NCBI RefSeq assembly: GCF_014218275.1
Contig: NZ_AP023213.1
Span: 2,706,001-2,770,000 of the forward strand
Origin: Citrifermentans bremense
Lineage (GTDB): Bacteria > Desulfobacterota > Desulfuromonadia > Geobacterales > Geobacteraceae
Reading direction: 5' to 3'
DNA length: 64,000 bases
Part shown: in pieces, positions 23,896 to 61,172 of the stretch
Layout of the letters: every line of letters begins with the position of its first letter
Position numbering within the stretch: position 1 is the stretch's first letter
Notes under the pieces: generated by a model
What the model was told of the DNA's origin: nothing
Databases searched by the model: none
Seen by the model: only the letters and a program-made list of their open reading frames with translations
Program-made: the position numbers and the translations under genes

Positions 23896-24737
23896 TCCGC
23901 ACCCCCTTCACCCTTGGAGAGCAGGGAACCGAGCCTGATCATGAGGGCTATGGCGACCACGAAGACGGCGAGCCCGGCGAACTCGTGGAAGAAGCCCTCC
24001 GCTGCCTTGGCGCCCCAGTACTGGGCGAGGAGCCCGGTTCCGATGACCCTCAGCGCGTTGGCCGAGATGGCGATGGGAATCGCCGAGAGGATCAAAAGGC
24101 CCCGGCGCAGCGCCCCCATCTCCAGGAAGAAGGCGTAGGCGACGGAAAGCGCCAGCAGCGAGATGAGAGACCTGATGCCGCTGCAGGCGTCGGCGACCTC
24201 GAGCGTGGTGAAGGGGAGCATGATGATGTTCCCCTCCCTGAGCACCACCACCCCCATGAGCTTCAGCGACGCTATCGAGACCCGCGTAACGAAGAGCTTC
24301 AGGGGAAAGGCGATCATGTCGTAGATGATGTAGGGGAGCGGCACCATGAAAAGGAGGTAGGCAAGCGGCAAGAGCATAAGCCGGAAAAGCCTCTTCCCCA
24401 ATAAAAAAAGGGTCATCCCGCAAAGGGTGACCACGATGGAACTGCGCATGGTGAAAAATTCGCTCCCAAGCCAACCCACCACCAGTTGCAAAAGCCCGGC
24501 TACGACCAGCAAAAGCCCCGGCCACCAGGGTTCGGCCAGCACCTCTGCCAGCTCCTTGCGCCTTTCGTAAGCGAAGTACCCGGCGATGAGGGGGACGACG
24601 AATCCGTGGGAATAGTTCGCGTCCTCGTACCACTGCTGCACCATATCCGGCAGGATGCTCCAGTAGACGCCGGTCAGTATCATAAGCGCCAGAAGAAACT
24701 GCATCCTGTGGTGTTTCAAAGACTCGGCGACTGTCAT
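23892..24737 (-). CDS. xrtA: Exosortase (XrtA/EpsH type)
   Basis: 281 residues, polytopic. The inferred catalytic triad is present in order and spacing: Cys near residue 184 (VADACSGIRSL), Arg near 229 (SANALRVIGTG) and His near 250 (FFHEFAG). The enzyme is a membrane transpeptidase-like protease that cleaves PEP-CTERM tails of exported proteins. In this window one intact substrate (32306-32959) and one decayed substrate (16951-17202) carry matching tails. It forms an overlapping pair with EpsI. Confidence 0.92.
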   Translation of the reverse strand: MTVAESLKHHRMQFLLALMILTGVYWSILPDMVQQWYEDANYSHGFVVPLIAGYFAYERRKELAEVLAEPWWPGLLLVVAGLLQLVVGWLGSEFFTMRSSIVVTLCGMTLFLLGKRLFRLMLLPLAYLLFMVPLPYIIYDMIAFPLKLFVTRVSIASLKLMGVVVLREGNIIMLPFTTLEVADACSGIRSLISLLALSVAYAFFLEMGALRRGLLILSAIPIAISANALRVIGTGLLAQYWGAKAAEGFFHEFAGLAVFVVAIALMIRLGSLLSKGEGGAE

Positions 24738-33159: not shown

Positions 33160-36099
33160 TTAGAAGAACCGGTTGACCGTCTTGGTGAAGACCGCGACGT
33201 TGTTGGAGGCGTCGTAGGCCTTGATGGTTACGGTGTGGACCCCCTTCGCGACGCCGGTGTTGACGCTGAAGGAGGAGTTGCTGGTGGAAAGAACCAGTGC
33301 GTTGTCCACGTAAGCCTCCATCTTGACGACTGCGACGTTGTCCTTCGCCGAGGCGGAGATGGTGAGCTTGCTGGAGGTCACGTAGTCCTTGGTCGGGGCG
33401 CTGACGCTGATCACCGGGGCTACGGTGTCGTTCAGGACGTTGACGCTTACGCTGGCGGACTGACCGACGTTACCAGCCTGGTCGTAGGCTTTGGCGCTCA
33501 CGATGTGGGTCCCGTTGGCTGCGGTCAAGGTGTTCCAGTTGTAGGCATAAGGGGCCGTGGCGGAGCTGGCCTGCAGGACGCCGTCCAGGTAGAACTCGAC
33601 CTTGGTCACCGCTACGTTGTCGCTGGCGCTGGCGTTCAGGCTGACGGTACCTTGCAGCGTGGCGCCCACCACAGGGGAGGCGATGGCCACCGACGGTGCG
33701 GCGGTGTCGTTGAATACGGTGACCGTGGCTGAGGCCTGGCCGATGTTGCCGGCTGCGTCGTAAGCCTTGGCGCTGACCGTGTAGGAGCCGTTGGCTGCGT
33801 TCGCGGTGTTCCAGCTGAAGCTGTAGGGGACCGCGGTCGAGGTCGCCGCCAGGGCGCCGTTCAGGTAAAGCTCAACTTTTTGTACCGCCAGGTTGTCGCT
33901 TGCGCTTGCCGATACCGTTACCGTGCCGCCGATGGTTGAGCCTGCGACCGGAGAGGCGATGGAGACTACAGGGGCGATCGCGTCGTTGGCGACATTGACC
34001 GTGACGCTCGACTGTCCGACGTTGCCTGCTGCGTCGTAAGCCTTAACGCTGAGCGTGTAGGAGCCGTTTGCTGCATTCGTGGTGTTCCAGTTGAAGCCAT
34101 ATGGAGCCGCGGTGGAGGTCGCTACAAGGGCGCCGTTCAGGTAGAGCTCCACTTTTTCTACCGCCACGTTGTCGCTGGCACTTGCCGATACCGGTACCGT
34201 GCCGCCGATAGTGGAACCGGCCACCGGAGAGGCGATGGAGACCGACGGGGCGATCGTATCGTTGGCGACGATGACCGTGACGCTGGACTGACCAACATTG
34301 CCTGATGCGTCATAAGCTTTCGCGGAGAGGGTATATGAACCACTTGCGAGAGTCAGTGTATTCCAGTTGTAACTGTAGGGCGCGCCCGTGGAAGTAGCCT
34401 TGAGGGTTCCGTTCACATAGAATTCAACCTTGCTGACCGCCACGTTGTCGCTTGCATTTGCTGATACCGACACCGTGCCGCTCGCAGTAGAGCCGGATAT
34501 CGGGGAGGTAATAGCTACCGACGGTGCTGTGGTATCGTTGGAAACATTGACTGTCACATTGGCCGACTGGCCGACATTCCCTGCGGCGTCGTAGGCTCTA
34601 GCCAAAAGGCTGTGAGAGCCATTCGCGCTGCCCTTTGTGTTCCAGGTCAGAGCGTAAGGAGCCGAGCCAATGATGCCGTAGGTCGCGCCGTCAATATAAA
34701 GCTCGATTTTTGAGACTGCCAAATTGTCAGAGGCACCTATATTTACAGTGACGGTACCGTTAACGCTTGAACCACTTGTGGGTGAAGAAATGGAAGCCAC
34801 CGGGGGGGTAGTGTCCACGACGGCTTGTACAGTCGGAATCAAAACTGAGGCAATATTGGATTTTTTGCTCTCGCTTTCGTTGCTATCTTGACCGAGCTTA
34901 TTCCACGCTGTCACAGCAAAGTAGTAGGTCTGCCCGGATTTTAGAGCAGGGATATCTGCGACCCTAACATTATCGGTGGTTATTGACTCGTTCAGATTCG
35001 CGGCGTCAGTTCCATAGTAAATCCTATAACCGTCCACTTGGTAATCCGCACCGTTAACACCTGCAGCCCAACTAATCCGCGCAGTATTTTCGCTATTGAC
35101 CTGAGCAGTTACGTTGACCGGATTGGCAGGCGGGCCACTGTAGGTAGTGCTGACAACTAAGTCATCAACTGCGTACCACTGCTCTGTAGCTGGGGTATAA
35201 GTATTAGCGTTATTCCCTCCGAGCCACACGTGATTCCACTGCCATGAACTCGGGTTATCCCCTGCGGGTACCCACACAACATTGGACTGATCATGTACTA
35301 AACGTCCGTCCAACCAGAAACGTGCTTTGCCGTCAGCAATGCCGCCAGCACTATTCAGTTTCACATACCATTCCATTGAATGCCATTCGCCATCGCCAGG
35401 AGCCCCGGTATTGTACCAGTCCAAGGGAGATGCCCCGAGGTAATCGTTCGTCGTAGTAGAGGCTGAATTGTCACGTGTTGCCGTCAGGGGAGACGGCATC
35501 ATATACAACTGCGTCCTGTAGGTTCCCGATCCGTATTTGGCATAACCGCCTACGTAGCGTGGTTTGTTTTGAGTGCCGCTAAAAAAGTCCCAAACAGATG
35601 CAGTATTAGTAGCATCGTAGTGAGAAAGGTGAATAAACTTCTGCATTGGGGAGGAGGTAGTATTCCACTTCCAGTCCTTCGGGAAGAGGGCCCAAGCTCT
35701 GACATATACTTCTTGCTGAGGGGCAAAAGCGATTCCCAGCAAGCCGTCGGAACCCCAGCTGCCGCTGCTGCTGTAGCAGGGCTCGTTCCAGAAACGAAAG
35801 CTTTTGCCGCTGCCACCGCGAGGATAATCACCATTGATGTTGAGCGTATTGTGCAAGCCATCAAGATTGCTGCATGCCACGGTAGCAGCAACTCGATAAT
35901 CATAAAAGCCTGTGGGGACGGGCGTTGTGCAGTCAGCTCCCTGCACGCAGGTCGTGGTCGCACCCGTCGTGGATTGACGCGGACTCCAGTCTGCGTGTCC
36001 ATCGAAATTGTCACTGAACAAAACCGCTGCAGACGAAGCGTTTGCAGACAAAAGTGCTCCTAGAGCTACTGCGGCCAGCATTACCTTAATTCCTTGCAT
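33160..36099 (-). CDS. Secreted ConA/lyase-like protein with Fn3 and six Ig-like repeats (paralogue 1)
   Basis: 979 residues from the ATG at 36099 (AAGGAGA upstream; the longer reading starts inside the riboswitch terminator). Signal peptide 1-24 (SANASSA). Residues ~25-325 form a jellyroll-type domain resembling polysaccharide-lyase/LamG folds: LFSDNFDGHADW, YVRAWALFPKDWKWN, GDGEWHSMEWYVKL, KARFWLDGRLVHDQ, WYAVDDLVVS. A fibronectin type III domain follows, then six ~92-residue Ig-like repeats (SIASPVAGSTIGGTV...NGSYTLSVKAYDAAGNVGQSS). There is no PEP-CTERM, lipobox or dockerin. Regulation: sigma-54 promoter plus GEMM riboswitch with terminator. Whether the first domain is catalytic or only binds glycans is unknown. 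Confidence 0.85.
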   Translation of the reverse strand: MQGIKVMLAAVALGALLSANASSAAVLFSDNFDGHADWSPRQSTTGATTTCVQGADCTTPVPTGFYDYRVAATVACSNLDGLHNTLNINGDYPRGGSGKSFRFWNEPCYSSSGSWGSDGLLGIAFAPQQEVYVRAWALFPKDWKWNTTSSPMQKFIHLSHYDATNTASVWDFFSGTQNKPRYVGGYAKYGSGTYRTQLYMMPSPLTATRDNSASTTTNDYLGASPLDWYNTGAPGDGEWHSMEWYVKLNSAGGIADGKARFWLDGRLVHDQSNVVWVPAGDNPSSWQWNHVWLGGNNANTYTPATEQWYAVDDLVVSTTYSGPPANPVNVTAQVNSENTARISWAAGVNGADYQVDGYRIYYGTDAANLNESITTDNVRVADIPALKSGQTYYFAVTAWNKLGQDSNESESKKSNIASVLIPTVQAVVDTTPPVASISSPTSGSSVNGTVTVNIGASDNLAVSKIELYIDGATYGIIGSAPYALTWNTKGSANGSHSLLARAYDAAGNVGQSANVTVNVSNDTTAPSVAITSPISGSTASGTVSVSANASDNVAVSKVEFYVNGTLKATSTGAPYSYNWNTLTLASGSYTLSAKAYDASGNVGQSSVTVIVANDTIAPSVSIASPVAGSTIGGTVPVSASASDNVAVEKVELYLNGALVATSTAAPYGFNWNTTNAANGSYTLSVKAYDAAGNVGQSSVTVNVANDAIAPVVSIASPVAGSTIGGTVTVSASASDNLAVQKVELYLNGALAATSTAVPYSFSWNTANAANGSYTVSAKAYDAAGNIGQASATVTVFNDTAAPSVAIASPVVGATLQGTVSLNASASDNVAVTKVEFYLDGVLQASSATAPYAYNWNTLTAANGTHIVSAKAYDQAGNVGQSASVSVNVLNDTVAPVISVSAPTKDYVTSSKLTISASAKDNVAVVKMEAYVDNALVLSTSNSSFSVNTGVAKGVHTVTIKAYDASNNVAVFTKTVNRFF
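33170..34850 (-). repeat. Six tandem Ig-like coding repeats
   Basis: Repeats of about 276 bases encode VAITSPxxGSTxxGTVxV / YDAAGNVGQS units. The central copies are most alike, consistent with recent unequal exchange; the first and last are diverged. Confidence 0.75.
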
Positions 36100-36260
36100 T
36101 TTTTTCTCCTTTGTCTCACTTGACACAAAAAAACCGGGTCGCCTGTCTCTTAATGGCAATGCCATCAAAATTGTTTCGGCGACCCGGCTGTCTCAGTAAG
36201 ACCCTTGGGCTTTCCGTCCCATCCTCGCGGATGGTTTAGTATTGTCGTTCATCTATTCAA
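35140..36260. repeat. Duplicated segment, copy A (with 38530-39660)
   Basis: The leader, riboswitch, signal peptide and ConA-like domain of paralogue 1 recur at 38530-39660 with long identical DNA stretches, including the riboswitch and terminator. This marks a recent tandem duplication of the 5' half. Confidence 0.8.
36127..36250 (-). promoter_or_regulatory. GEMM-I-class cyclic-dinucleotide riboswitch with terminator (copy 1)
   Basis: Read on the minus strand, the aptamer (36250-36177) has the GEMM core: UACUAAACC, hairpin AUCCGCGAGGAU, GGGACGGAAAGCC, a second stem GGGUCU...GAGAC, and AGCCGGGUCGCC. The 3' arm CCGGGUCGCC is also the 5' half of an intrinsic terminator with GGCGACCCGG and seven U (36143-36127), so ligand binding should favour read-through (ON). 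The base two before the C/U of the CAAACC block (G20 in the Vc2 aptamer) is A here, the signature of cGAMP-preferring GEMM variants. The start codon of paralogue 1 is 28 bases downstream. Confidence 0.88.
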
Positions 36261-36353
36261 TTGAGTGTGCTACAGACTCAGCCAGTTCGGATTTTGTTGC
36301 GCATCGCAATCTCCTCAACCACTTTTTTCATCAAGTCAATTGCCCTTGTTATC

Positions 36354-36368
36354 GCAACACCAGTGCCA
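36354..36368 (-). promoter_or_regulatory. Sigma-54 (-24/-12) promoter for riboswitch copy 1 and paralogue 1
   Basis: Minus strand TGGCAC-TGGTG-TTGC, a perfect match to TGGCAC-N5-TTGC. The predicted start near 36342 gives a ~240-base leader that contains the GEMM riboswitch. Confidence 0.8.
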
Positions 36369-36980
36369 AACCAGTATACTTGCACAAACTATTGTTATCA
36401 TTGAACTTTACAGTTTGAGCTAGGAAGAAGGATAACCGTTAGATGAGTAAAAGGTGAACACACAATCCATTCAATCCTTAGCTCCTCTCAGGCGCTCCCT
36501 GCATTTACAACTTGTAAGTGCTCCATTGAACAGGTTGTTCAAAGGCTGAGCACAAAGCAGACATAACGTGTTCGAGGTATTGAGATGATGAAAAATCCCC
36601 CCCTCCACTCTATCTCAACAGCATCCAGTTAACGGATCAGAGCGGCTATACTTTGATTGGTTTGGAATAGAGAGAATCGCTGCGAAATCATCGGGGCAAG
36701 AACTACAGCAGACGACTAGCTGCTTTGAGCGATATTGACAACCGGCGGGGGTCAATTCCGAATGCTGATCGATATAGGCAAAAGGGCACAAGTTGTGATT
36801 CTTTTGCCCTCTGCTTTGTCCGCACCCACAATGTTGCTTGATGTAAACAAGAACAGAATTTATTTAGAGCTACTGAACAACTGTCAAAGTGCTGAGCAGC
36901 GAAATCACGACATGAGGGCTCCCAATCCCTTGGCAGTAAAAATGCAGAGAAAGTTTCCCATTATTGGCAAAGAGACTGGG

Positions 36981-37052: not shown

Positions 37053-39485
37053 CTATTTCAAGCGGTTAACCGACTTGTTCACCACGGTGACGTTGTTGGC
37101 GGCGTCGTACGCCTTGAAGGTCACCGCGTGCCGCCCGATCGTTACGTATTTGCTGGTGTTGATTGAAGAGCTGCTGGTGGAAAGGACGAGAACGTTGTCC
37201 ACGTATACCTGCAGTTTGGTCACTGCCACGTTATCTGCCGCCGATGCCTTCAGGTAGAGCGTGCCGCTGTTCATGTAGTAGCTGACCGGAGATGCCACGT
37301 TGATGGTCGGGGCAGTCTTGTCATTCATGACGTTAACAGTGACGCTGGATTGGCCGACATTGCCGGCGGCATCATAGGCCTTCACCATCACGGTGTTGGG
37401 GCCGTTGGGGTAGTTGGTGGTGCCCCAGGTGATAGTCCAGGGCGCGGTTGTGGAGGTGATCCTCAGGACCCCATTCACGTAGTACTCGACTTTTTTCACG
37501 CCGACGTTATCGGTGGCGTTGGCGGATATCGTCGCTATCCCGCTGACCGTGGAACCGGCCACGGGCTTGGCGATGGAGACCACCGGGGCGGTCGTGTCGC
37601 CAGTCGTGGTGGTGGTGGTGGCGGTGGTGATGTTGACCAGGGCAGTTTTTGCTGTCGATACCTTGCCGGAGGCGTCCTTGCTCCAGGCGTAGGCGGTGCG
37701 AGAACCGGTCGCTGCAAAAGTGAAGCTGGTCGGCGCGCTGGTTTTCCAGGTGGTGGCGCCCGCCGCGGGAGCGGTCCCGCTCTCGGTGATCTGGTAGCCG
37801 GTGACGCCGACGTCGTCGGCCGCCGCAAAGGCGGTGACCGGTACGGTCAGCGCAGTGGCGGAAGCCGGCATGGAGAAGGAGCTGATCACCGGGGCCGTAG
37901 CGTCGGTGACTGCGACTGCGTTTTTCACGGTCACCGAGCTCGACGCCTGTCCGACGTTACCGGCTGCGTCATAGGCCTTCGCGGTCAGAGTGTAGGTGGC
38001 GTTGGGGCTGTTGGCCGTATTCCAGGTGAGGGTGTAGGGTGCAGAGCCCACCACGCCGAAGATGGAGCCGTTCAGGTACATCTCCACCTTGCTGACAGCG
38101 ACGTTGTCGCTGGCTGCGACGTTGATAGTGACGTTGCCGCTCACGGTGGAGCCTGTGGCCGGCGAAGAGATGGAAGCTACCGGAGCGACGGCATCTGCAG
38201 TGGTCGTGGTGGTAGTGCCCGAAACGGTGGTCGCGCTTGCCGTTACCGAGAGCATCCCTTCGTTGTCGTTGCTGTCGTAGCTACCCTTGTTGTATGCGGA
38301 GACGGCGAAGTAGTACTTGGTCGCGGGGTCGAGGGAAGAGATGTTGTACTGCAGCACATTCCCAACGTCCACTTTCATGTTCAGGTTGGCAGCGTCTTTT
38401 CCGTAGTAGATGCGGTAGCCGTTAACCGGGTGGGCAACCCCGTTGCTGCCGGCGCTCCAGCGAAGGCTCACGGCGTTTGCAGTGCCTGCGGCGGCGGTCA
38501 CGCTCGTCGGCTGTGCCGGAGGGCCGCTGTAGGTGGTGCTTACCACGAAGTCGTCAAGGGCGTACCACTGCTCTGAAGCAGGAGTATAGGTATTAGCATT
38601 ATTCCCTCCGAGCCACACGTGATTCCACTGATACGAACTCGGATTATCCCCTGCGGGCACCCACACGACATTGGACTGATCATGTACTAAGCGTCCGTCC
38701 AGCCAGAAACGTGCTTTGCCGTCAGCAACGCCGCCAGCACTATTCAGTTTCACATACCATTCCATTGAGTGCCATTCGCCATCGCCAGGAGCCCCGGCAT
38801 TGTACCAATCCAAGGGAGCTGCCCCGAGGAAATCGTTAGTGGTAGTAGAGGCTGAATTGTCACGTGTTGCCGTCAGGGGAGACGGCATCATATACAACTG
38901 CGTCCTGTAGGTTCCCGACCCGTATTTGGCATAACCGCCTACATAGCGTGGTTTATTTTGAATGCCGCTAAAAAAGTCCCAAACAGATGCGCTATTGGTA
39001 GCATCGTAGTGAGAAAGGTGAATAAACTTCTGCATTGGGGAGGAGGTAGTATTCCACTTCCAGTCCTTCGGAAAGAGAGCCCAAGCTCTGACATATACTT
39101 CTTGCTGAGGGGCAAAAGCGGTTCCCAGCAAGCCGTCGGAACCCCAGCTGCCGCTGCTGCTGTAGCAGGGCTCGTTCCACATCATGAAGCTCTTCCCTTG
39201 CCCTCTGGGGTGCTGCCCATTGATGTTTAGGGTGTTGTGCAAACCATCAAGATTGCTGCATGACACGGTAGCAGCAACTCGATAATCATAAAAGCCTGCA
39301 GGGACGGGCGTTGTGCAGCTAGCGCCCTGCACGCAGGTCGTGGTCGCACCCGTTGTGGATTGACGCGGACTCCAGTCTGCGTGTCCATCGAAATTGTCAC
39401 TGAACAAAACCGCTGCAGACGAAGCGTTTGCAGACAAAAGTGCTCCTAGAGCTACTGCTGCCATCACTACCTTAATTCTTTGCAT
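37053..39485 (-). CDS. Secreted ConA/lyase-like protein with Fn3 and four Ig-like domains (paralogue 2)
   Basis: 810 residues. Signal peptide and N-terminal ~325 residues are nearly identical to paralogue 1 (LFSDNFDGHADW, ALFPKDWKWN, KARFWLDGRLVHDQSNVVW). After the Fn3 domain come an Ig-like repeat (SISSPATGSTVSG), a different beta-sandwich (VISSFSMPASATALTVPV...YAWSKDASGKVS) and two more Ig-like repeats, ending VNKSVNRLK. No surface-anchoring signal is visible. It is preceded by riboswitch copy 2, but its -24/-12 promoter is damaged compared with copy 1, so it may depend on another promoter or be silent. Confidence 0.85.
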   Translation of the reverse strand: MQRIKVVMAAVALGALLSANASSAAVLFSDNFDGHADWSPRQSTTGATTTCVQGASCTTPVPAGFYDYRVAATVSCSNLDGLHNTLNINGQHPRGQGKSFMMWNEPCYSSSGSWGSDGLLGTAFAPQQEVYVRAWALFPKDWKWNTTSSPMQKFIHLSHYDATNSASVWDFFSGIQNKPRYVGGYAKYGSGTYRTQLYMMPSPLTATRDNSASTTTNDFLGAAPLDWYNAGAPGDGEWHSMEWYVKLNSAGGVADGKARFWLDGRLVHDQSNVVWVPAGDNPSSYQWNHVWLGGNNANTYTPASEQWYALDDFVVSTTYSGPPAQPTSVTAAAGTANAVSLRWSAGSNGVAHPVNGYRIYYGKDAANLNMKVDVGNVLQYNISSLDPATKYYFAVSAYNKGSYDSNDNEGMLSVTASATTVSGTTTTTTADAVAPVASISSPATGSTVSGNVTINVAASDNVAVSKVEMYLNGSIFGVVGSAPYTLTWNTANSPNATYTLTAKAYDAAGNVGQASSSVTVKNAVAVTDATAPVISSFSMPASATALTVPVTAFAAADDVGVTGYQITESGTAPAAGATTWKTSAPTSFTFAATGSRTAYAWSKDASGKVSTAKTALVNITTATTTTTTGDTTAPVVSIAKPVAGSTVSGIATISANATDNVGVKKVEYYVNGVLRITSTTAPWTITWGTTNYPNGPNTVMVKAYDAAGNVGQSSVTVNVMNDKTAPTINVASPVSYYMNSGTLYLKASAADNVAVTKLQVYVDNVLVLSTSSSSINTSKYVTIGRHAVTFKAYDAANNVTVVNKSVNRLK

Positions 39486-39660
39486 TTTTTCTCCTTTGTC
39501 TCACTTGACACAAAAAAACCGGGTCGCCTGTCTCTTAATGGCAATGCCATCAAAATTGTTTCGGCGACCCGGCTGTCTCAGTAAGACCCTTGGGCTTTCC
39601 GTCCCATCCTCGCGGATGGTTTAGTATTGTCGTTCATCTATTCAATTGAGTGTGCTACAG
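38530..39660. repeat. Duplicated segment, copy B (with 35140-36260)
   Basis: Second copy of the duplicated 5' half. Downstream Ig-like regions of the two genes differ much more, and upstream similarity fades through a decayed sigma-54 promoter. Confidence 0.8.
39512..39635 (-). promoter_or_regulatory. GEMM-I-class cyclic-dinucleotide riboswitch with terminator (copy 2)
   Basis: Essentially identical to copy 1: core UACUAAACC, GGGACGGAAAGCC and GACAGCCGGGUCGCC (aptamer 39635-39562), then terminator arms CCGGGUCGCC/GGCGACCCGG and seven U (39528-39512). The same A occupies the Vc2 G20 position. The ATG of paralogue 2 is 27 bases beyond the U-run. Confidence 0.88.
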
Positions 39661-40339
39661 ACTCAGCCAGCGCGGGTTTTGTTGCTCATCGCAAACTCCT
39701 CAACCAGTTTTTCATCCAGTCCATGCCGTTGTTATCGCGACACCAGTGCAAACATAAAACCGATCCTTAGTTTTCCCCAATATAAGCCATGATCACATTT
39801 ATGGATTTCATCTGCATACATGGTTAAGCAACGGCCTTATGTCTAAACCTTCACGTCTCCAGGTATGTCGGGCGAAAAGAACACCGGAATCCAGCTTATC
39901 TCTAGATCAACTGCTCCAGCTGAGCAATCATCAGCACCTCAACAGACAGGAAAAGAAGCCTTAGCCAGCTAACTCAGAAGATTATTGGACGAAAAAAAAG
40001 CCGGGTTGCCGAAAAGGTAAACATTTCGGCAACCCGGCTGTCTCGGTGAGACCCTATAGGCTTTCCGCCCCATCCTCGCGGATGGTTTAGTATTATCGTC
40101 TGCTTGGCTTTTTTGCTGTAAAGAACTAAACTGCGCCAGGTTCGGTGACCACAGGTTCCGGCTCCCCTTACGTCTGGCCATTCTTCCGTAACGTCTGGGG
40201 GGAGTATCGCCTATTCAAGGCAATAGTTATGTGACCTGAATTACATTTTCTGCAGTTTTCCAGGACCTTACCCTGCACCAAGTCGCGGGAAAGGAGCAGC
40301 GGCAGGCCCGCCGCGAACAAATTTCAACTCCCAGCAGGG
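39636..40339. other. Region between paralogue 2 and the cohesin gene, with orphan riboswitch
   Basis: Contains a decayed -24/-12 promoter at 39736-39750 (minus strand TTGCACTGGTGTCGC, cf. TGGCACTGGTGTTGC in copy 1), an orphan riboswitch at 39992-40100, and no gene between them. The rest shows nothing recognisable. Confidence 0.6.
39992..40100 (-). promoter_or_regulatory. Orphan GEMM-I-class riboswitch with terminator (copy 3)
   Basis: Aptamer 40100-40027 on the minus strand: UACUAAACC, AUCCGCGAGGAU, GGGGCGGAAAGCC, GGGUCUCACCGAGAC, AGCCGGGUUGCC. It is followed by a compact terminator CCGGGUUGCCGAAA / UUUCGGCAACCCGG with eight U. Covariation with copies 1-2 (GGGUUGCC/GGCAACCC versus GGGUCGCC/GGCGACCC) supports the structure. 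No ORF follows before the paralogue 2 leader, about 350 bases away. It also lies in the 3' region of the dockerin-cohesin operon. Confidence 0.85.
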
Positions 40340-40843: not shown

Positions 40844-40845
40844 AG

Positions 40846-42894
40846 TCAGAACCTCGTTATTCCAGTGACGATCCCCAGAATCAGCAACACGTCACCCGTA
40901 TCGATAACCCCGTCCGGTTGCGGCACCCCCCCCACCAGTGGGGCCAGATCGCCGCGAAGCAACTGGGTTGCATCCGGTTTCGTCTTCCCGACCGCCATCT
41001 GCATGGCAAGTTGGGCGTCCTCCACCCCCACCGAGGCATCGCCGGAGAGATCCCCCACTTTCAGGACCCCTATCGATGCCATGGCCGCTGCGGCCTGCCT
41101 GGTCTCGTTTCCGGCGACGTCGCGCGCAGTTACGATAACCTGGTTGGCGACTCCCGGCTGCAGGTTGCTCAGAAGGTAGCTCCAGGACTGACCGTTAAGT
41201 TCGGCGGCCGTCTGTTGCCCGTTGCCGACCTGCACCATGACGGAGGCAACGCCAGAGCCATTGGTATCGGAGGCGATTCCAGAGATGGGTAGGGAGGTGA
41301 GTATGGTCGGGGTGGTGAAGGCAGAAACTGTGACCACGGGAGGAACGGTATCGAGCACGACGGTGCCGCTTGCCGATTTCTCGTTGCCGGAAAGGTCTTT
41401 TGCGGTCACCACGATGCTGTTTCCCCCTTCGGTCAGACTCCGAATGGTGCAGCTCCAGCTGTTGCCAGTCACCGTCGCGGCGACGGGCGCCGCAGCGCCG
41501 ACCTTGACCAGCACCGAAGCGATGCCCCCTGCATCCGCAACCGTCCCGGAGAGGGTCTGAGTGGCTAGCCGCGTGGGAGAGGCGACTGGGAGCATGGTGA
41601 TGTCCGGGGGCACCAAGTCGACGGTGACCGCGTTGGCGGAAGCGCTGCGCCGGCTTTCGTTCTCGTTGGCGTCGTTTGCTTCCTGCTTGAAGGCGGTAAC
41701 GGCGAAATAATACCTGGTGCCGGTGGCAAGAGAACTCACCACAGCCTCCCTTTGGGAGGCCAAGACGGTGATCGAGCTGTCGAGGTGCCCTGGGTCGGTC
41801 CCGTAGTAGATGCGGTAACCGTCCACCAGGTAGTTCGCCCCGTTGCTGCCGCTTTGCCAGGTGAGACGTATCGACGAGGTGCTGATCCCCTCCGCACTGA
41901 GCGTTGTGGGAGGCGGAGGCGGCCCGCTGTAATGGGTACTGACCACTAAGTCGTCGACGGCGTACCACTGCTCCTTGGCGGGTACATAGGTGTTGGAGTT
42001 GTTGCCGCCGATCCAGGCGTGGTTCCACAACCATGCACCAGGGTCATCCCCTGCCGGCACCCAAGCAATATTTGCCTGGTCATGCACCAAGGCACCGTCG
42101 AACCAAAAACGCGCACGACCGTCGGCGACACCGCCTGAGCTGTTCAACTTCACGTACCATTCCAACGAATGCCATTGCCCATCACCTGGAGCCCCGGCAT
42201 TGTACCAGTCCAGGGGAGCTGCCCCGAGGTAATCATTTGTGGTGGAAGAGCCTGAATTGTCTCGCGCTGCCGTCAGAGGAGACGGCATCATATATAGCTG
42301 TGTCCTGTAGGTCCCGGCCCCGTACTTGGCAAATCCACCCACATAGCGCGGCTTATTCTGCGTACTGCTGAAAAAGTCCCAAATAGAAGCAGGATTGCCG
42401 GGATCGTAGTGGGAAACATGGATGAACTTTTGCATCGGCGATGCAGCGGTGTTCCACTTCCAGTCAGAGGGAAAAAGAATCCAGTATCTGATGTAAACCT
42501 GCGACTGTCCGGCGAACGAAATACCCAAAAGGCCATCAGATCCCCAACTCCCCCCGGAGGAATAGCATGGCTCGCTCCAGAACACGAAGCTTTTCCCGTT
42601 TCCGCCTCTGGGGTGGGTTCCATTTATGTTGAGTGTGTTGTGGAATCCATCCAAATTACTGCATACCTCAGTAGCGGCAATGCGATAATCGCTGAATCCG
42701 GCTGGAACTGGCGTAACACAACTCGCCGCCCCCTTCACACAACTATTTGTTGCTCCATTGGTGAATTGGAGCGGTCCCCACTGACTTTGTGAGTTAAAGC
42801 TTTCACTGAAGAGAACAGCTGCTCGTGAAGAGTCTGGCGTGACAGCCCCACCTCCAATAGCCAAAACTACCATCAGCAATGCACGAAAGATCAT
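40846..42894 (-). CDS. Secreted ConA/lyase-like protein with Fn3, Ig-like domains and C-terminal dockerin (paralogue 3)
   Basis: 682 residues from the ATG at 42894 (CTGGAAAT upstream; one longer frame overlaps the previous gene). Signal peptide about 1-25. Residues ~26-330 align with paralogues 1 and 2 (YIRYWILFPSDWKWN, GDGQWHSLEWYVKL, RARFWFDGALVHDQ). Fn3 domain, then two Ig-like domains (ITMLPVASPTRLATQTLSG, TVSAFTTPTILTSLPISG). The C-terminal ~70 residues form a type I dockerin: loop 1 GDLSGDASVGVEDAQLAM, loop 2 PDGVIDTGDVLLILG. It is followed at once by the cohesin lipoprotein. No riboswitch precedes it; it is at the end of the low-GC glycan trio. Confidence 0.85.
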   Translation of the reverse strand: MIFRALLMVVLAIGGGAVTPDSSRAAVLFSESFNSQSQWGPLQFTNGATNSCVKGAASCVTPVPAGFSDYRIAATEVCSNLDGFHNTLNINGTHPRGGNGKSFVFWSEPCYSSGGSWGSDGLLGISFAGQSQVYIRYWILFPSDWKWNTAASPMQKFIHVSHYDPGNPASIWDFFSSTQNKPRYVGGFAKYGAGTYRTQLYMMPSPLTAARDNSGSSTTNDYLGAAPLDWYNAGAPGDGQWHSLEWYVKLNSSGGVADGRARFWFDGALVHDQANIAWVPAGDDPGAWLWNHAWIGGNNSNTYVPAKEQWYAVDDLVVSTHYSGPPPPPTTLSAEGISTSSIRLTWQSGSNGANYLVDGYRIYYGTDPGHLDSSITVLASQREAVVSSLATGTRYYFAVTAFKQEANDANENESRRSASANAVTVDLVPPDITMLPVASPTRLATQTLSGTVADAGGIASVLVKVGAAAPVAATVTGNSWSCTIRSLTEGGNSIVVTAKDLSGNEKSASGTVVLDTVPPVVTVSAFTTPTILTSLPISGIASDTNGSGVASVMVQVGNGQQTAAELNGQSWSYLLSNLQPGVANQVIVTARDVAGNETRQAAAAMASIGVLKVGDLSGDASVGVEDAQLAMQMAVGKTKPDATQLLRGDLAPLVGGVPQPDGVIDTGDVLLILGIVTGITRF

Positions 42895-42916
42895 ATTTCC
42901 AGGAACTCGCCAAACC

Positions 42917-44098
42917 TTAATTCGTACAGAATTTGAGATTACGACTTGGCTCGTTAAGAAGCAGATCATAGGATTTAAATTCATTGTAAACCTCCTCCCT
43001 TAACAATATCGGCCCATATGTCATCTCAAGGGCCACCATGTCAGGCTCTGAGTTGATTTCTATGAGTACTGGACCGCTATCCGTTATGCAAATATCCAAC
43101 CCCAACAGTTTGTGAAATGGGAACTGCCATTGTATCTTTTTTGACAATACAACAAGCTGCTCCCAGTATGGAATTGAAAGACCTTTAAAACAAAGAGTTG
43201 AGACAGGGTGTTGGCTGTACACGTTCCCAGCATAGTCGACAGCGGTATCGAACACGCCTCCGCTTGCCACATCTACTCCAGCAGCAATCCCGCCTGATGA
43301 AAGGTTATCGATATCAGAAGCACCAACTCCGAATCTGATAAAAGCCCCAATGATCAGCACATCTGAGCAATCGCGTTTGAGAAGAGTCACTACCCGCACT
43401 GTGTTGCAAGAAGGCGAGTATGCTTCCAAAGATGGATGTTGCCTTACGTAGTCCTGGACAATTGCAGGATGATTGAGTTCAAACTCGTCAAGGGTACAAA
43501 CAACACTTTTCCTCTTTACAAAAACTTCATGACCATCTCGGTAAGCCACTACAATTCCCTTCCCCCCCATACCATCATAGACCTTGATGATGATCTTACC
43601 TCCATCAGACTCTTTCATAAAAAGCCGTATCCGATCACGGTACGCCTCCTGAGGGTAGATGACGCCGTACTGCCTCGGAATTGGAAATTCTGAATTCTTG
43701 CATAGTTCGTAACAGATGATCTTGTTTTCGAAGATGACGATGTTTTCCTTCTTGTAGATATTCCGTTGAAACCTCCACCTTTGATATGGATCGTAATTTG
43801 AACCATAATAATAAGGCCAGAGAGATTTGCTTTTCGTCCAGAGCCTGCAACAGCTATAATTATTAGGATAATACTTAAGTTTGAAAAAGATGTAGAGGAA
43901 GTCACAAGCTACATGCAGCTTGTTCCTACTACAATTTTTCCAGTTGATTTCATAGGTAAAGCAATACGGTAAAGCAATAAATCTTATTATTCTACGAACG
44001 CAAAGGACAGTTAAGTCCGTAGTACGATCAACAAAAGCGACAAGAAAATCGTACGCTTTTTCAAAACTGTTCTTGGTTCCGTCATCTTTAAGCTTCAT
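42917..44098 (-). CDS. Sugar-transfer-associated ATP-grasp protein
   Basis: 393 residues, AT-rich. An N-terminal helical segment is followed by an ATP-grasp fold: nucleotide-binding IIIKVYDGMGGKGIVVAY, PAIVQDYVRQHPSLEAYSPS, NTVRVVTLLKRD, LGLDICITDSGPVLIEINS-type metal site. The family (ATPgrasp_ST) occurs in capsule and EPS clusters and is thought to ligate an amino acid or similar group to a sugar or carrier. It overlaps the GT2 gene by 11 bases. Base composition is clearly lower in GC than the flanks. Confidence 0.8.
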   Translation of the reverse strand: MKLKDDGTKNSFEKAYDFLVAFVDRTTDLTVLCVRRIIRFIALPYCFTYEINWKNCSRNKLHVACDFLYIFFKLKYYPNNYSCCRLWTKSKSLWPYYYGSNYDPYQRWRFQRNIYKKENIVIFENKIICYELCKNSEFPIPRQYGVIYPQEAYRDRIRLFMKESDGGKIIIKVYDGMGGKGIVVAYRDGHEVFVKRKSVVCTLDEFELNHPAIVQDYVRQHPSLEAYSPSCNTVRVVTLLKRDCSDVLIIGAFIRFGVGASDIDNLSSGGIAAGVDVASGGVFDTAVDYAGNVYSQHPVSTLCFKGLSIPYWEQLVVLSKKIQWQFPFHKLLGLDICITDSGPVLIEINSEPDMVALEMTYGPILLREEVYNEFKSYDLLLNEPSRNLKFCTN

Positions 44099-45077
44099 GA
44101 TGGTTACCCCATAAAATACACTTTAAATAAGAAACTGATCCAATTCCTCTGGCGCAAAAATATACGTAATAAAGCACAAGTAGGGATAGATACTGCGTGA
44201 ATTTTTTGGAAATTGAGAGGCGGTAAAAAACTGCTATGTTAATAAGTACGAATATCAATACAAGAATTGCAACTGAGAATGAGCTGGGCAGGAATAACAG
44301 CAAAAAATGCAACACAAAAAAAATCAACGTGAACAAAAAGACCATGTCGAACTTCCCGTTTTTTATTGAAATAGCCGTATTGAAGCCGTACCATTTCTCT
44401 TTCAGGAAGAATTGGAGCAGCGTTTTGGGGTTTCGCAAGTGAATGCTTTGCAAATCGCTCGAATTCAGCAAGACAACACCCTTTTTCACCGCTCTCTCAC
44501 ATAGATCGGCATCCTCACAGGTGACCAGTGACTCGTCGAAGCCATTCAAATCCTTGAATAATCCTGTGGTGACAATCATGTTGCCAGAGGGTAAAAAGGA
44601 CACCGACTTTTCCTGATTCTTGGCCTCATATAACCAAGCTTTTTCGACCCAGGCCGCATCCGGAGGCACCCTGTATCCGGCGCCAACCATCCCCACCTGC
44701 GGTCTTGAGAGAAGTTTGACCGCTGTACTGATCCACTTCTTAGGAATTTGGCAGTCACTGTCGACAAAAGCAAGAATTTCACCTTTGGCGACTTGCACTC
44801 CATCATTTCTCACTTTGGCGATGGTCCGGGCCGTCGATTTTATCACCCTGACATTGTATCCCCCAGCCACAGTTGCACTGGAGTCAGTCGACATATTGTC
44901 TACCACTACAATCTCTAACCGATCGGACGGATAATCCGACTCCAAAACGCTCTCAATACACAACCGGATGTAAGCCTCACAGTTGTAGGTGGGGATAATC
45001 ACTGATACGAATGGAAAGTATCCAGCATTCGGAATATCACTCACTTCATTTCTCTCCGACATATCGTTCACTTTCAA
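44088..45077 (-). CDS. Family 2 glycosyltransferase with C-terminal membrane segments
   Basis: 329 residues. GT-A start FVSVIIPTYNCEAYIRLCIE, nucleotide-sugar metal motif FVDSDCQIP, acceptor region NGFDESLVTCEDADLCERA. Two or three hydrophobic segments lie at the C-terminus (FLFTLIFFVLHFLLLFLP). It probably adds one sugar to a lipid-linked oligosaccharide at the inner membrane. The start overlaps the ligase stop by 4 bases. It belongs to the low-GC trio. Confidence 0.85.
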   Translation of the reverse strand: MKVNDMSERNEVSDIPNAGYFPFVSVIIPTYNCEAYIRLCIESVLESDYPSDRLEIVVVDNMSTDSSATVAGGYNVRVIKSTARTIAKVRNDGVQVAKGEILAFVDSDCQIPKKWISTAVKLLSRPQVGMVGAGYRVPPDAAWVEKAWLYEAKNQEKSVSFLPSGNMIVTTGLFKDLNGFDESLVTCEDADLCERAVKKGVVLLNSSDLQSIHLRNPKTLLQFFLKEKWYGFNTAISIKNGKFDMVFLFTLIFFVLHFLLLFLPSSFSVAILVLIFVLINIAVFYRLSISKKFTQYLSLLVLYYVYFCARGIGSVSYLKCILWGNHHEA

Positions 45078-46357
45078 TCAATCTCCGATACAAAATCTTT
45101 CTTCTTGCTGTTGAAGTTCGATCTGGGAACGCCAGTCCTAATATTCACATCAAGGTCCGCTTTAAAGTACTTGTTAAATTCCTTATTGATCAGTTTCAGC
45201 CCATCCTCATCGACCTCACTTTCGATAAGTAACTCGAGAGTGCCCCGAGTTTTTTGCACAGCTTGATAATTCAACACTACGCTATGACTTGAAGCCATAT
45301 TTTTGAAGACATAGTATAGAGTCAGACTCGGGTAGGTGTTGGTCTTACCATGTATCAACGCGCCAATCCTGCCGGTCACCTCCTTGATAATAGGATGTGC
45401 CATACCACAGCTACACCCGCTTTCTCCAAGTTTCACGTAATCACCAAGCCTATACCTTATGATGGGGAAGGAAGTGGACACCAAATTCGTAACCAGTATC
45501 TCATTATCAATTTCTTCAACTATCACCGTTTCCATATTGATATGCATATTTCCTTGGGTGCATTCAAAGGCGATGATTCCTCCCTCAGCGGAGCCATATT
45601 CACTGACGATCGGTTTTCCGAAAGCCTTTTGTACCTCTTCCCTGTACACGTCGTAGATTTTCTCCGAAGTCCCCTTCACCATCTTCAACCGAAATTTGGA
45701 AGATATGCCCCTGGCGTTAACTCGCTTGGCAATCTCATAGATCATAGATGAGTACCCATTCAGGTAGGAGGCCTTCTGAAGCTTACTCAGGAAACGGTCT
45801 AAACCATCGCTCTCATAAGAAAAAAGCCGGAATCTATTTTGGAGAAAATCCAGAAAACTAACTTTAAGCTTTTTAACAAATGAGATATTATACCCCCACA
45901 GGTAACCGTTTCTCTCCCATGGGAAAACGCCATGCCATGAATATCCACGCATGACCGAAGCGTTATGCCAAGCATCCCACTCCTGATTTCTGTAAAATAC
46001 AAGAGGCCGACCCGTGCTACCTGAAGTCTCCGAAAAGAACATCTTTTCAGCCGGCACGTTAATCTGTATTCCTGACACATTGGCGAGGACATCTTCTTTC
46101 TCAGTTACAGGCAACTTTTTTAAATCGTCCAGAGTAGAAAGGTAACTTGGGTGAAAGCCGCATTCATCGAACCTTTTTCTGTAAAAGTCCGTGTTTGCAT
46201 AGGCGTTGGATAGCAACAGCTTCAGCCTCTCTAACTGGAGTTGCCGCAGATCATCTAACTGCCATTTTTCGCTCTCTTTCAGGAAACGGTAGCATTTAAG
46301 GATTTTCTTATTCCTATACGCGAGACCGGCCAGATATATGTATTTGAAAAGCGCCAT
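45074..46357 (-). CDS. PaaK/CapK-like adenylate-forming ligase
   Basis: 427 residues. AMP-binding signature SETSGSTGRPLVFYRNQEWD, then GSAEGGIIAFEC, RYRLGDYVKLGESGCSCGM (with a Cys pair) and a C-terminal domain ending FNSKKKDFVSEID. This type resembles phenylacetate-CoA ligase/CapK proteins of capsule clusters rather than catabolic PaaK; the substrate is unknown. It is first of three overlapping low-GC genes, preceded by ~380 bases without genes. Confidence 0.8.
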   Translation of the reverse strand: MALFKYIYLAGLAYRNKKILKCYRFLKESEKWQLDDLRQLQLERLKLLLSNAYANTDFYRKRFDECGFHPSYLSTLDDLKKLPVTEKEDVLANVSGIQINVPAEKMFFSETSGSTGRPLVFYRNQEWDAWHNASVMRGYSWHGVFPWERNGYLWGYNISFVKKLKVSFLDFLQNRFRLFSYESDGLDRFLSKLQKASYLNGYSSMIYEIAKRVNARGISSKFRLKMVKGTSEKIYDVYREEVQKAFGKPIVSEYGSAEGGIIAFECTQGNMHINMETVIVEEIDNEILVTNLVSTSFPIIRYRLGDYVKLGESGCSCGMAHPIIKEVTGRIGALIHGKTNTYPSLTLYYVFKNMASSHSVVLNYQAVQKTRGTLELLIESEVDEDGLKLINKEFNKYFKADLDVNIRTGVPRSNFNSKKKDFVSEID

Positions 46358-46737
46358 AAAATAGCCTCCACTGGCTCAGTCTCAACGATAGATCGAAAAT
46401 ATCACCGCAGACGGCCATTATACCCATGTATTTTTTTGCAGTAGTTGCAGGATTAAAAGCAGAATCGTCACGCTCTCTTTTGCAACTGCTCCCACAGCTG
46501 AGCAACAGGCCTCGTCACAAGCTGATCCAGCGACTAGGCCAGCGTCACGAATCTCCGGATCGACCAGAATCCCCGACACTCGCTCGTATCAGCGTGGCAC
46601 GCGAGCAGTCCTGCCGAACAACATTGGTGAGGTCGCACAGAAACCTTATTCTTAAGTCACTCGTGACCACCTCCTTGTGCTCATCACGACGGATTAGTCG
46701 TGTAGGCCCAGAGAGGTGACAAACTGGTGGATTTGGC
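46358..46737. other. Intergenic region between flippase gene and low-GC trio
   Basis: 380 bases. I see no coding region, hairpin terminator or recognised operator. It marks the abrupt change from high-GC (right) to low-GC (left) genes and must hold the trio's promoter. Confidence 0.5.
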
Positions 46738-48252
46738 TCATCCGCCCGAGACCGCCGCCCTGCCGAAAAGCTTCTTGAGCAAAAGATCCCTGTGCTCTCT
46801 TTCCAGCGACGCGGGGAAAGAGGCCGCCAGAAACACCGCGGCTACCACGGCGCAGGTGGCCAAAAGCGTGAAGTAGCCCGTTATCCGGTACGGGTTCCAG
46901 GCGATGAAGAGCAGCGCTGCCAGTGTCCCGGCAAGCGCCGGGGCGTAGGCCCTGGCAACATAGCGCCAGAGGCCGATGCGAAGCAGGCTGCAGGTGTAGC
47001 AAAGAACGCACCCAGCAGCCAGCACCAGCGGCACCATAGTCCCCACGGCGACCCCCTCGATGCCGTAAGGCCTGGCGAGCGCCATGCTCATCCCCAGGTT
47101 GGCCAGGGCCTCAAGGGCAAGTATGTAGGCTAAAACCCTGTGCCTGCTGATCCCCTTCAGTATCCCGTGAGCTATCATCTGCGAGAAGGAGACGCCGAAA
47201 CCGATCAGCAAGAGCCTGAGCACCCAAAGCGACCGTTCTCCGAACTCGGGCCCCATCCAGAGCGTGATGAAATCATCTCCATAGAAGTAAAGCGAGATCA
47301 CCACCGGCATGCTGAAGAGAAGCGTGTAGCGGGTGCCGGTGACGTAGAGCCTCTCGTTTGCGCCACCCGCCCCGGTAGCCTCATTGGCGCTGATCATTGG
47401 TACCAGTACAGAGATCATGGCCCAGACGAACTTCTCGAGGTAGTCCAGCAAGGTTGAGGGTATGGCGTAGAATGCCACCTGGGAGACGCCGATCAGTGCT
47501 CCGATGACCACCGAGTCGGTGTAAAAGAGAAGCTTCAGGGCAACGGCGATCACGAAGCTGTACACGCTGTAATTGTAGATGAGCTTCACCGTGTCGCGGT
47601 TCACCGCCGACCGGTCGAAGCGGAGGTGAACGTGTTTCCTGCGCAAACGAAGGTACTGGCAGAGCGCCCTCACCACGCTCGCCGCCAGTTGCAGCGAGGC
47701 GAGGGCAAGGAGCGCGTAGCCGCTTTTAAGCATCAGCACCAGGATCGCGCTCCTGACGATGTTGATGGAGATGGAGGTGCCGTTTATAAACTTGAATTCC
47801 TGCAGCCCCGCCAGAGTCCCGAGGAAAACGGAGCAGACCAGCCCCCCCGCCAGATCCAGCGCAGAGATCAGGAAAACGGCGTACAGGTAGGACCTCGGAA
47901 TGTGATAGAGCTGGAACAGGTCCTGGAAGAAGTAGCCGAAAACCAGGGAGAAGAGGAGCACCACGGAGGAGGTTATCCCGAAGATGGTCATCGAGGTGGA
48001 GTAGACGGCGCGCGCACGGTCGTGGTCATTGCGGGCGGTGCTGCTGGAGATGTAGCGCACGATCGCGGTGTTGACCCCGAAATCGAGCACAGTGAAATAG
48101 CCGGTGACCGAGACCACCAGGGTCCATACGCCGTACAGTTCCTTGCCCAGGCTCTTGACCAATACCGGGCTCACAACGAAGGCTATGGTGACGGTCACCA
48201 ACAGGTTGACCCAGTTGGAGAGGATGTTTTCTATTATCTTGCGCAGCTGCAT
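46738..48252 (-). CDS. Polysaccharide flippase (Wzx/MATE-like)
   Basis: 504 residues, about 12-14 hydrophobic segments. N-terminal NILSNWVNLLVTVTIAFVVS and LGKELYGVWTLVVSVTGYF are typical of polysaccharide exporters that flip undecaprenyl-linked oligosaccharide. Last gene of the long minus-strand glycan operon, 47 bases after a GT4 gene. Confidence 0.88.
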   Translation of the reverse strand: MQLRKIIENILSNWVNLLVTVTIAFVVSPVLVKSLGKELYGVWTLVVSVTGYFTVLDFGVNTAIVRYISSSTARNDHDRARAVYSTSMTIFGITSSVVLLFSLVFGYFFQDLFQLYHIPRSYLYAVFLISALDLAGGLVCSVFLGTLAGLQEFKFINGTSISINIVRSAILVLMLKSGYALLALASLQLAASVVRALCQYLRLRRKHVHLRFDRSAVNRDTVKLIYNYSVYSFVIAVALKLLFYTDSVVIGALIGVSQVAFYAIPSTLLDYLEKFVWAMISVLVPMISANEATGAGGANERLYVTGTRYTLLFSMPVVISLYFYGDDFITLWMGPEFGERSLWVLRLLLIGFGVSFSQMIAHGILKGISRHRVLAYILALEALANLGMSMALARPYGIEGVAVGTMVPLVLAAGCVLCYTCSLLRIGLWRYVARAYAPALAGTLAALLFIAWNPYRITGYFTLLATCAVVAAVFLAASFPASLEREHRDLLLKKLFGRAAVSGG

Positions 48253-48299
48253 ATTGCTCCTGACTGGTGAGACAGGTGGGCGGGGTGACGGCAGACGCC

Positions 48300-49448
48300 T
48301 TACCCTAGCGCCTCACGGTAGATTTGCTGCATGGCGCGGTTCCTGGTGGCAAAGGAGAATTTGCTCCTGGCGACGGCCATCGCCTCCCTGCCGAACTCGT
48401 TCCGGAGCTCCGGAGATTCAATCAGCTGGCAGATATAGGTAAAAAGGTTTTCGGTGACGTGCCGGTTGAACTCGTCGGGGATGTCGTTCACCAGGTACCC
48501 CCTGAACAGCTTGTCGCAATCGAAGCCCCTGGTGTCCACGAGGAGGCCGGTGGCGCCGTGGCTGACCATCTCGGGGATGGCAAAGTAGTTGGTGGATATC
48601 ACCGGGATGCCGTACGCCATCGCCTCCAATATGGCGAAGCCGAAGGCCTCGGTATAGGTCGGCAGGAGGTAGATGTCCGTCTCGGGGAGGATCTCCCCGA
48701 TCAGTTTCTCGCGCGGCACCCGGCCGCAGGTGATGGCGCCGTTGCTCCTCACCTTGTCCAGGTACTCCTGGCGCAGCGCCTCATTCATGGTGCAGAAGTC
48801 CTGCTCGTCGCAGCAAAGCCTCAACCTGATGCCGGGATAGATCTGCTGTGCTTTCTCGAAGGCGTCGACCACGTTGGCCCCGCCTTTTCTGAAGAAATCG
48901 CCGCTGAAAAGGAGGTTTACCTGCCGCGAACCGAAGCGGATCAGTTCGTTTGGCACCTCGCGGATCGCCGGGTAGACCACGGCCACCTTTTCCTGCATCA
49001 CCCCCTCGCCGACCCCGCCGTAGCTATGCAGAGTTTCCCTTCCCGATTTGCTCCAGAAAATGAGCTTCTTGAAGTTCTTCTTGGACATGAGGTAGCGCAG
49101 GTAGGCCACCCTCGCGGAGCGGGGGAGCGGGCAACCGAGCAGGTTGAAGGTGGTCGCCTCCTGGAAGTTGGCGATGGAGTAGATCCACCTGTTCCGGGTG
49201 ATGATCGGGCTCAGTATCGCCTCTATCAGGTCATGCTCTGCACTCTCGTAATGCCCCAGGTACCCCTTGATGCCGCTTCTCACCAGGAGGTTCTTCCTGG
49301 GCAACGGGCTGAGGAACGAGTAGCTGACATCCGATGGGGGGAACTCTGCCAGTTCCTTCGCCATGCCATGCCTTTCGGTGAAGGCGACGCGGACAGGGCC
49401 GGCTTCGCCGCCGGTCGTTTTTTTCCCTTCTTTACTATGCAAGTTCAT
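48300..49448 (-). CDS. Family 4 glycosyltransferase
   Basis: 382 residues, start taken at ATG 49448, which overlaps the stop of the upstream gene by 14 bases (AGGAGG immediately before). GT-B C-terminal motifs: NLLFSGDFFRKGGANVVDAF, ITCGRVPREKL, TYTEAFGFAILEAMAYGIPV (EX7E-type) and ATGLLVDTRG. Retaining glycosyl transfer in EPS repeat-unit assembly is likely. Confidence 0.85.
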   Translation of the reverse strand: MNLHSKEGKKTTGGEAGPVRVAFTERHGMAKELAEFPPSDVSYSFLSPLPRKNLLVRSGIKGYLGHYESAEHDLIEAILSPIITRNRWIYSIANFQEATTFNLLGCPLPRSARVAYLRYLMSKKNFKKLIFWSKSGRETLHSYGGVGEGVMQEKVAVVYPAIREVPNELIRFGSRQVNLLFSGDFFRKGGANVVDAFEKAQQIYPGIRLRLCCDEQDFCTMNEALRQEYLDKVRSNGAITCGRVPREKLIGEILPETDIYLLPTYTEAFGFAILEAMAYGIPVISTNYFAIPEMVSHGATGLLVDTRGFDCDKLFRGYLVNDIPDEFNRHVTENLFTYICQLIESPELRNEFGREAMAVARSKFSFATRNRAMQQIYREALG

Positions 49449-53350: not shown

Positions 53351-53363
53351 CTGCGGCTATCTC

Positions 53364-55564: not shown

Positions 55565-55565
55565 G

Positions 55566-57571: not shown

Positions 57572-57593
57572 CTCGCTTCCTCCGCGCGGAGTT

Positions 57594-58649: not shown

Positions 58650-58666
58650 GTCTCACCCCGAGCCGG

Positions 58667-61171: not shown

Positions 61172-61172
61172 A

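Follow-up and report, generated by a model that had tools for sequence, protein, structure and literature searches.

Cyclic-dinucleotide riboswitches of the GEMM-Ib (c-AMP-GMP) type are known from Geobacter, where the pgcA switch of G. sulfurreducens combines a GEMM-I aptamer carrying adenine at position 20 (A20) with an anti-terminating ON layout; such switches occur many times per genome, are known in tandem and already count polysaccharide biosynthesis genes among their named targets (PMC6456294). Doublets and triplets of c-di-GMP-I aptamers have been described as pseudo-cooperative (PMC9481103), and PEP-CTERM/exosortase genes of the PrsK/PrsR system carry sigma-54 sites (PMC1569441, PMC9850573).

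The locus that we analysed, within a 64-kb window of the Citrifermentans bremense genome (the whole stretch of 64,000 nucleotides), shares features with all three. Like the Geobacter GEMM-Ib switches, its riboswitch RS3 is a GEMM-I, A20 aptamer laid out for anti-termination; it differs in having a sigma-54 box 103 bases upstream and in its target, a large and probably secreted Ig-repeat protein with a jelly-roll-like domain, encoded where an exosortase-linked exopolysaccharide cluster ends, a class not named in the sections of PMC6456294 consulted. Two further aptamers, RS1 and RS2, precede one gene as in the known tandems, but here a neighbouring paralogue has a single switch, which makes a natural pair. 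XrtA, PrsR and the upstream sigma-54 box recall the PEP-CTERM systems, although genes A and B lack a PEP-CTERM tail by eye. What is new is the sigma-54 box before an aptamer, a pair of paralogues with unlike gating, and an A20 plus G20 tandem before a homologue in another family. In a literature search by titles and abstract openings, we found no paper on a GEMM switch with an exosortase, lectin or polysaccharide lyase target; the gene tables of two 2015 PNAS papers on these switches may list orthologues. We read RS3 as a cGAMP-preferring A20 transcriptional ON switch for gene B, with a sigma-54 box and a matrix-type target, and give this model as a whole a probability of about 0.72.

An aptamer and a terminator share one strand

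A cmscan of the window against all 4,227 Rfam families matched the leader of gene B to RF01051 (GEMM-I, c-di-GMP-I) at 45.9 bits, against a gathering score of 35, with an E-value of 8.5e-6 for the 64-kb window and the full model (1–87) covered (Table 1). The complete GEMM core that a sequence-only reading of this DNA had reported in the minus-strand leader is thereby borne out, by the covariance-model check that the reading had itself proposed. It had also claimed that the last arm of the aptamer doubles as the first arm of a terminator, and it does: bases 62–73 of 76, the 3′ strand of the aptamer, form the 5′ arm of a 12-pair stem. A 12-pair helix with the 3′ part of the aptamer arose in 10 of 2,000 single-base shuffles of the downstream part. 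From the end of the U run to the ATG of gene B (36099) we count 27 bases, where 28 had been given.

Because the terminator takes the strand that closes the aptamer, sequence and folding indicate that ligand should oppose termination. The layout is that of a transcriptional ON switch, as previously proposed from the same geometry, in which the terminator and the complete aptamer would be mutually exclusive. Without ligand, the last strand of the aptamer would pair with the downstream arm and RNA polymerase would stop before gene B; with 3′,3′-cGAMP, that strand would be held in the aptamer, the terminator would not form and gene B would be transcribed. A generic terminator scan, which allowed loops of 3–8 bases, reported 7 sites where 5.5 were expected; the terminators of RS1, RS2 and RS3, with their longer loops, are not among them.

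Table 1. Features of the locus (window coordinates)
Feature	Position	Strand	Description
RS3	36175..36250	(-)	GEMM-I aptamer, A20, leader of gene B
RS3 intrinsic terminator	36127..36189	(-)	Arms 36189-36178 and 36143-36132, U run to ~36127
RS2	39560..39635	(-)	GEMM-I aptamer, 45.9 bits, sequence identical to RS3, leader of gene A
RS2 terminator		(-)	Own terminator, arms 39574-39563 and 39528-39517
RS1	40025..40101	(-)	GEMM-I aptamer upstream of RS2, 46.2 bits
RS1 terminator		(-)	Own 16-bp terminator, arms 40039-40024 and 40014-39999
Gene B	33160..36099	(-)	979 aa; signal-peptide-like N-terminus (by eye), jelly-roll lyase-like domain, fn3, six Big_7 Ig stretches
Gene A	37053..39485	(-)	810 aa, paralogue of gene B; lyase-like domain, fn3, three Big_7 stretches
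Gene C	40846..42984	(-)	Third paralogue; dockerin-like C-terminus by eye
Block copy B	35132..36371	(-)	Leader, riboswitch, N-domain
Block copy A	38521..39753	(-)	Leader, riboswitch, N-domain
Sigma-54 -24/-12 box	36354..36368	(-)	Perfect, 5′ of RS3
Degenerate sigma-54 counterpart	39737..39751	(-)	Before RS2, without the invariant GG
PrsR	18413..19759	(-)	PEP-CTERM-box response regulator; TIGR02915, 626.8 bits, cut-off 502.6, sole match above cut-off
Exosortase XrtA	23919..24698	(-)	TIGR03109, 229.4 bits, cut-off 208
Polysaccharide gene cluster	42917..63987	(-)	Upstream, same strand: glycosyltransferases, Polysacc_synt, Wzy_C, polysaccharide deacetylase, Asn synthase, others

Neighbouring paralogues are predicted to be gated differently

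The window holds two more RF01051 matches, RS1 and RS2, which the sequence-only reading had missed; they form two complete aptamer–terminator units in tandem before gene A. The reading had likewise overlooked the paralogous genes A and C. Shuffling reached the RS2 helix in 11 of 2,000 trials and the 16-pair helix of RS1 in none of 2,000. The regulatory unit is larger than a single switch, with two paralogous targets, three aptamers and a sigma-54 box before one target. The N-domain of gene B is 93% identical to that of gene A and 73% identical to that of gene C, for which no aptamer lies within 700 bases upstream. Behind gene C comes a lipoprotein of cohesin-like appearance (by eye), the two together spanning 40340–42984, and similar pairs occur in G014 (L035 3925–6550) and G029 (L036 2298–5206); at E 0.001, Pfam gave no match for this protein of 167 aa.

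Genes A and B share a block of 1,241 bases, 93% identical, that comprises leader, riboswitch and N-domain. The RS2 aptamer lies inside it and so is not independent support for RS3, and RS1 lies outside. The C-terminal Ig parts of the two genes have their best matches in two different G014 genes (86% and 85%), the Ig part of gene A also matching the second of these at 82%. Set against the near-identical block, these matches suggest that the paralogues predate the split from G014 and that the riboswitch and N-domain block was copied or homogenised later.

Such recent sharing of RS2 and RS3 would also fit a gene B leader that is a decaying or passive copy, its terminator merely ending upstream transcription and its aptamer having little effect, and a scan of the region for sigma-70-like promoters gave no excess (2 found against 2.6 expected). 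We regard this as very improbable, given that the G014 orthologues still have an aptamer in front of them, as do diverged homologues such as those of G029 (31% identity) and G016 (26%), and that the sigma-54 box is present in G014 too.

A sigma-54 box precedes RS3

The sigma-54 box before RS3, spotted by eye first and scored afterwards, scores 10/10 against TGGCAC-N5-TTGC with both GG and GC, and is the only perfect match in the window; allowing one mismatch gives 3 matches against 4.9 expected. A perfect box also lies 101 bases before the aptamer of the G014 orthologue. These are the 2 of 29 leaders (13 in the same genome and 16 before homologues) that score 10/10; none of the other 27 reaches 9, and single-base shuffles gave 0. 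We consequently rejected the idea that these leaders generally carry a sigma-54 site. The counterpart before RS2 is degenerate, and no good box precedes RS1. The box of gene B lies 254 bases from the start codon, beyond the maximum of 221 given in PMC1569441, because the riboswitch lies between. The sigma-70-like alternative is a 9/12 match at 36401–36373.

With a sigma-54 promoter box of its own, gene B would likely need a sigma-54 activator as well as cGAMP. Gene A, without an intact box, sits behind two switches in series and should respond more steeply to the same ligand if its transcription starts upstream of RS1. PrsR and XrtA are encoded in the same window, and a search for a shared PrsR-type motif gave no 18-mer (up to 4 mismatches) common to the leader of gene B and that of the PEP-CTERM gene at 32306–32959. 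The PEP-CTERM-like gene, P0003 (32247–32959, plus strand; tail by eye), lies beyond the 3′ end of gene B and has a 9/10 sigma-54 box upstream.

Position 20 points to cGAMP

Position 20, in a numbering that we take to be that of the Vc2 aptamer, is A in RS1, RS2 and RS3. Across the genome there are 13 RF01051 matches, 11 with A20 and 2 with G20. A20 marks cGAMP-selective GEMM-Ib switches, and the A20G variant shifts selectivity to c-di-GMP (PMC6456294). By analogy with this Geobacter work, A20 points to 3′,3′-cGAMP as the ligand of RS3, which the sequence-only reading had left open.

Alternatively, RS3 might sense c-di-GMP, or respond to the two dinucleotides about equally well. The GEMM-I class contains sensors of c-di-GMP, and switches that answer to both messengers are reported in Geobacter (PMC6456294, PMC12285248): OmcST is an example of a response to both cGAMP and c-di-GMP (PMC6456294), and a G. 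metallireducens strain richer in c-di-GMP and poorer in cGAMP showed a rise in several predicted cGAMP targets (PMC12285248). An A-type aptamer from D. acetoxidans binds c-AMP-GMP markedly better than its G-type relatives do, with at most a slight loss of affinity for c-di-GMP (PMC9481103). Most GGDEF matches in the genome are also of the ordinary kind: in the 24 of 26 in which the motif could be read, the selectivity residue is Asp in 22, Thr in 1 and Ser in 1. Yet all three window aptamers carry A20, and the pgcA switch, which is of the A20 type, is ~1,200-fold selective for cGAMP (PMC6456294). We consider c-di-GMP or dual sensing unlikely, though less so than a passive leader.

For cGAMP sensing by RS3, the genome also offers a candidate source. 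The Ser-bearing GGDEF match (G000:C1:1288722-1289195, 149.3 bits) reads GGDEY, and Ser at the selectivity position is presumably the mark of Hypr enzymes, making this protein a candidate Hypr-type enzyme. By eye, another GGDEF match, weak (44.7 bits) and degenerate, carries Ser in this position too.

Probably secreted proteins beside a polysaccharide cluster

The sequence-only reading had described the target as a large protein with a ConA-like domain and six Ig repeats. Its size and repeats hold, and the ConA-like assignment finds weak support in sub-threshold Pfam matches and a low-confidence model. The N-domain of gene B matches polysaccharide lyase 14 (PF21294) at 18.8 bits, below the Pfam cut-off of 27; sub-threshold matches to PF21294 occur in 9 of 14 family members at E up to 1 (best 7.6e-5), and to PF14099 in 6 of 14. 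A phmmer search of the N-domain against PDB sequences gave nothing up to E 1. Structure models had low confidence, with a pLDDT of 30.6 from the single sequence and a mean pLDDT of 40.1 (pTM 0.49) from a five-row alignment. At E < 0.001, Foldseek gave ten hits for this weak model. Eight are chains of alginate or glucuronan lyases, and the other two come from TtX122B, a domain of unknown function; TM scores by query are 0.27–0.38. The N-domain thus weakly resembles jelly-roll polysaccharide lyases, and our best guess is a jelly-roll that binds or cleaves polysaccharide.

Genes A, B and C lie at the 3′ end of a polysaccharide cluster with flippase- and polymerase-like genes. Proteins A and B probably belong, as secreted surface or matrix proteins, to the adjoining exopolysaccharide/exosortase cluster and bind or cut a polysaccharide. 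By eye, the first paralogue in G133 (L104 7833–9797) and G029 (L036 2298–4649) seems to be fused to a glycosyltransferase-2-like N-terminus.

The pairing recurs across the order

At least one RF01051 match occurs in each of 38 of the 39 relatives searched. With a profile built from 14 N-domain sequences we searched 141 genomes of the order; 23 of them have homologues, and re-scanning the stretches around these gave 40 homologous ORFs, 39 of them assessable (the L103 ORF, which begins at a contig end, was set aside). The 40 leave out the second piece of a broken-up G057 gene (L102 1424–2254) and a 148-aa MAG fragment (L034 34–480), two MAG ORFs were counted apart, and the G005 ORF was counted, its called start overlapping the aptamer by 7 bases with a later ATG available. 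Many of the weaker homologues match the profile only in part.

For 19 of the 39 ORFs, a GEMM-I aptamer lies on the same strand within 700 bases upstream. These ORFs come from 16 of the 23 genomes, from 9 of 10 genera and from three families; they are not independent, because many share descent. Eighteen of these came from the initial stretches, and G026 was added with further sequence (43.5 bits, ~120 bases before the ORF). Given 13 aptamers in 4.46 Mb, the chance expectation per gene is ~0.1%; with the aptamer density of the richest relative it would be 0.3%. At position 20, A stands in 19 and G in 3 of the 22 aptamers that precede these 19 genes. No aptamer was found within 700 bases of the remaining 20 ORFs, three of which are second genes behind a switch-bearing homologue. 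Among the 14 strong homologues (E < 1e-90), 7 have an aptamer and 7 have none, the latter mostly being the first copy beside polysaccharide genes (by eye). The target had been thought unusual for the GEMM regulon; within its clade the pairing is not an outlier and recurs across the order.

A search of genome contigs gave a single locus, in a Bdellovibrionales MAG, and its two homologues have no aptamer in the MAG sequence examined. Separately, two GEMM-I aptamers lie upstream of an fn3/Ig-repeat-like protein that lacks the jelly-roll domain (L038 1986–5471, minus strand); the association may thus hold for Ig-repeat proteins more generally.

Tandems of mixed type

In two genomes of one genus in another family, G029 (L036 14644–14919) and G133 (L104 5067–5344), an A20 aptamer and then a GGC-type (G20) aptamer precede a homologue. 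In both, the 3′ strand of the A20 aptamer folds into a hairpin with a U run behind it, and a strong Shine–Dalgarno-like AAGGAGGTGA lies between the aptamers. After the G20 aptamer comes a long hairpin, similar in the two genomes, that lacks a U run. Ser occupies the selectivity position in 1 of 22 GGDEF matches of G029. An A20 plus G20 doublet is absent from the passage of the logic-gate table (Table 2) consulted in PMC9481103, which counts 347 c-di-GMP-I doublets that may include A20/G20 cases.

The C. bremense genome itself has an A20 then G20 pair before a lipoprotein-like gene (G000:C1:2699017-2699278; L015 1018–1279), with aptamers at 2699017 and 2699203, both followed by terminator-like hairpins. 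That mixed tandems are common was considered and rejected: in ten further stretches, picked from the highest-scoring matches, all of the 21 aptamers read (of 24) are G, in 16 cases with the triplet displaced by one position, and the 3 unread ones look G by eye. We give no rate, because picking by score is biased towards G types. In G006 (L145 366–1411) and G018 (L146 255–1444), four GEMM-I aptamers stand in an array within ~1.2 kb.

Discussion

For the C. bremense locus, the sequences themselves show the aptamers and their copies, the terminator sequence, the base at position 20, the promoter box and the recurrence in relatives; from these we infer the ligand, the switching, promoter use, the transcription start of gene A and the function of the proteins. 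More tentatively, and with doubt outweighing confidence, we hypothesize that a module conserved in Geobacter-like bacteria places secreted jelly-roll/Ig proteins under cGAMP control, that these proteins remodel exosortase-linked exopolysaccharide or anchor to it, and that members of the module have different logic gates. Gene B would then combine a sigma-54 promoter with one switch, gene A would depend on read-through and two same-ligand switches in series, and the G029 and G133 homologues would sit behind a cGAMP-type and then a c-di-GMP-type switch, a two-messenger gate.

Genes A and B supply a natural single-versus-tandem riboswitch pair on paralogues, and G029 and G133 a candidate two-messenger tandem. 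In Geobacter, cGAMP is tied to transient attachment, distinct from the permanent, c-di-GMP-linked electrode biofilm (PMC6456294); a polysaccharide-active or adhesive protein gated by cGAMP would thus be a candidate for a direct effector. If our reading is true, the predicted cGAMP regulon extends to large, matrix-associated secreted proteins.
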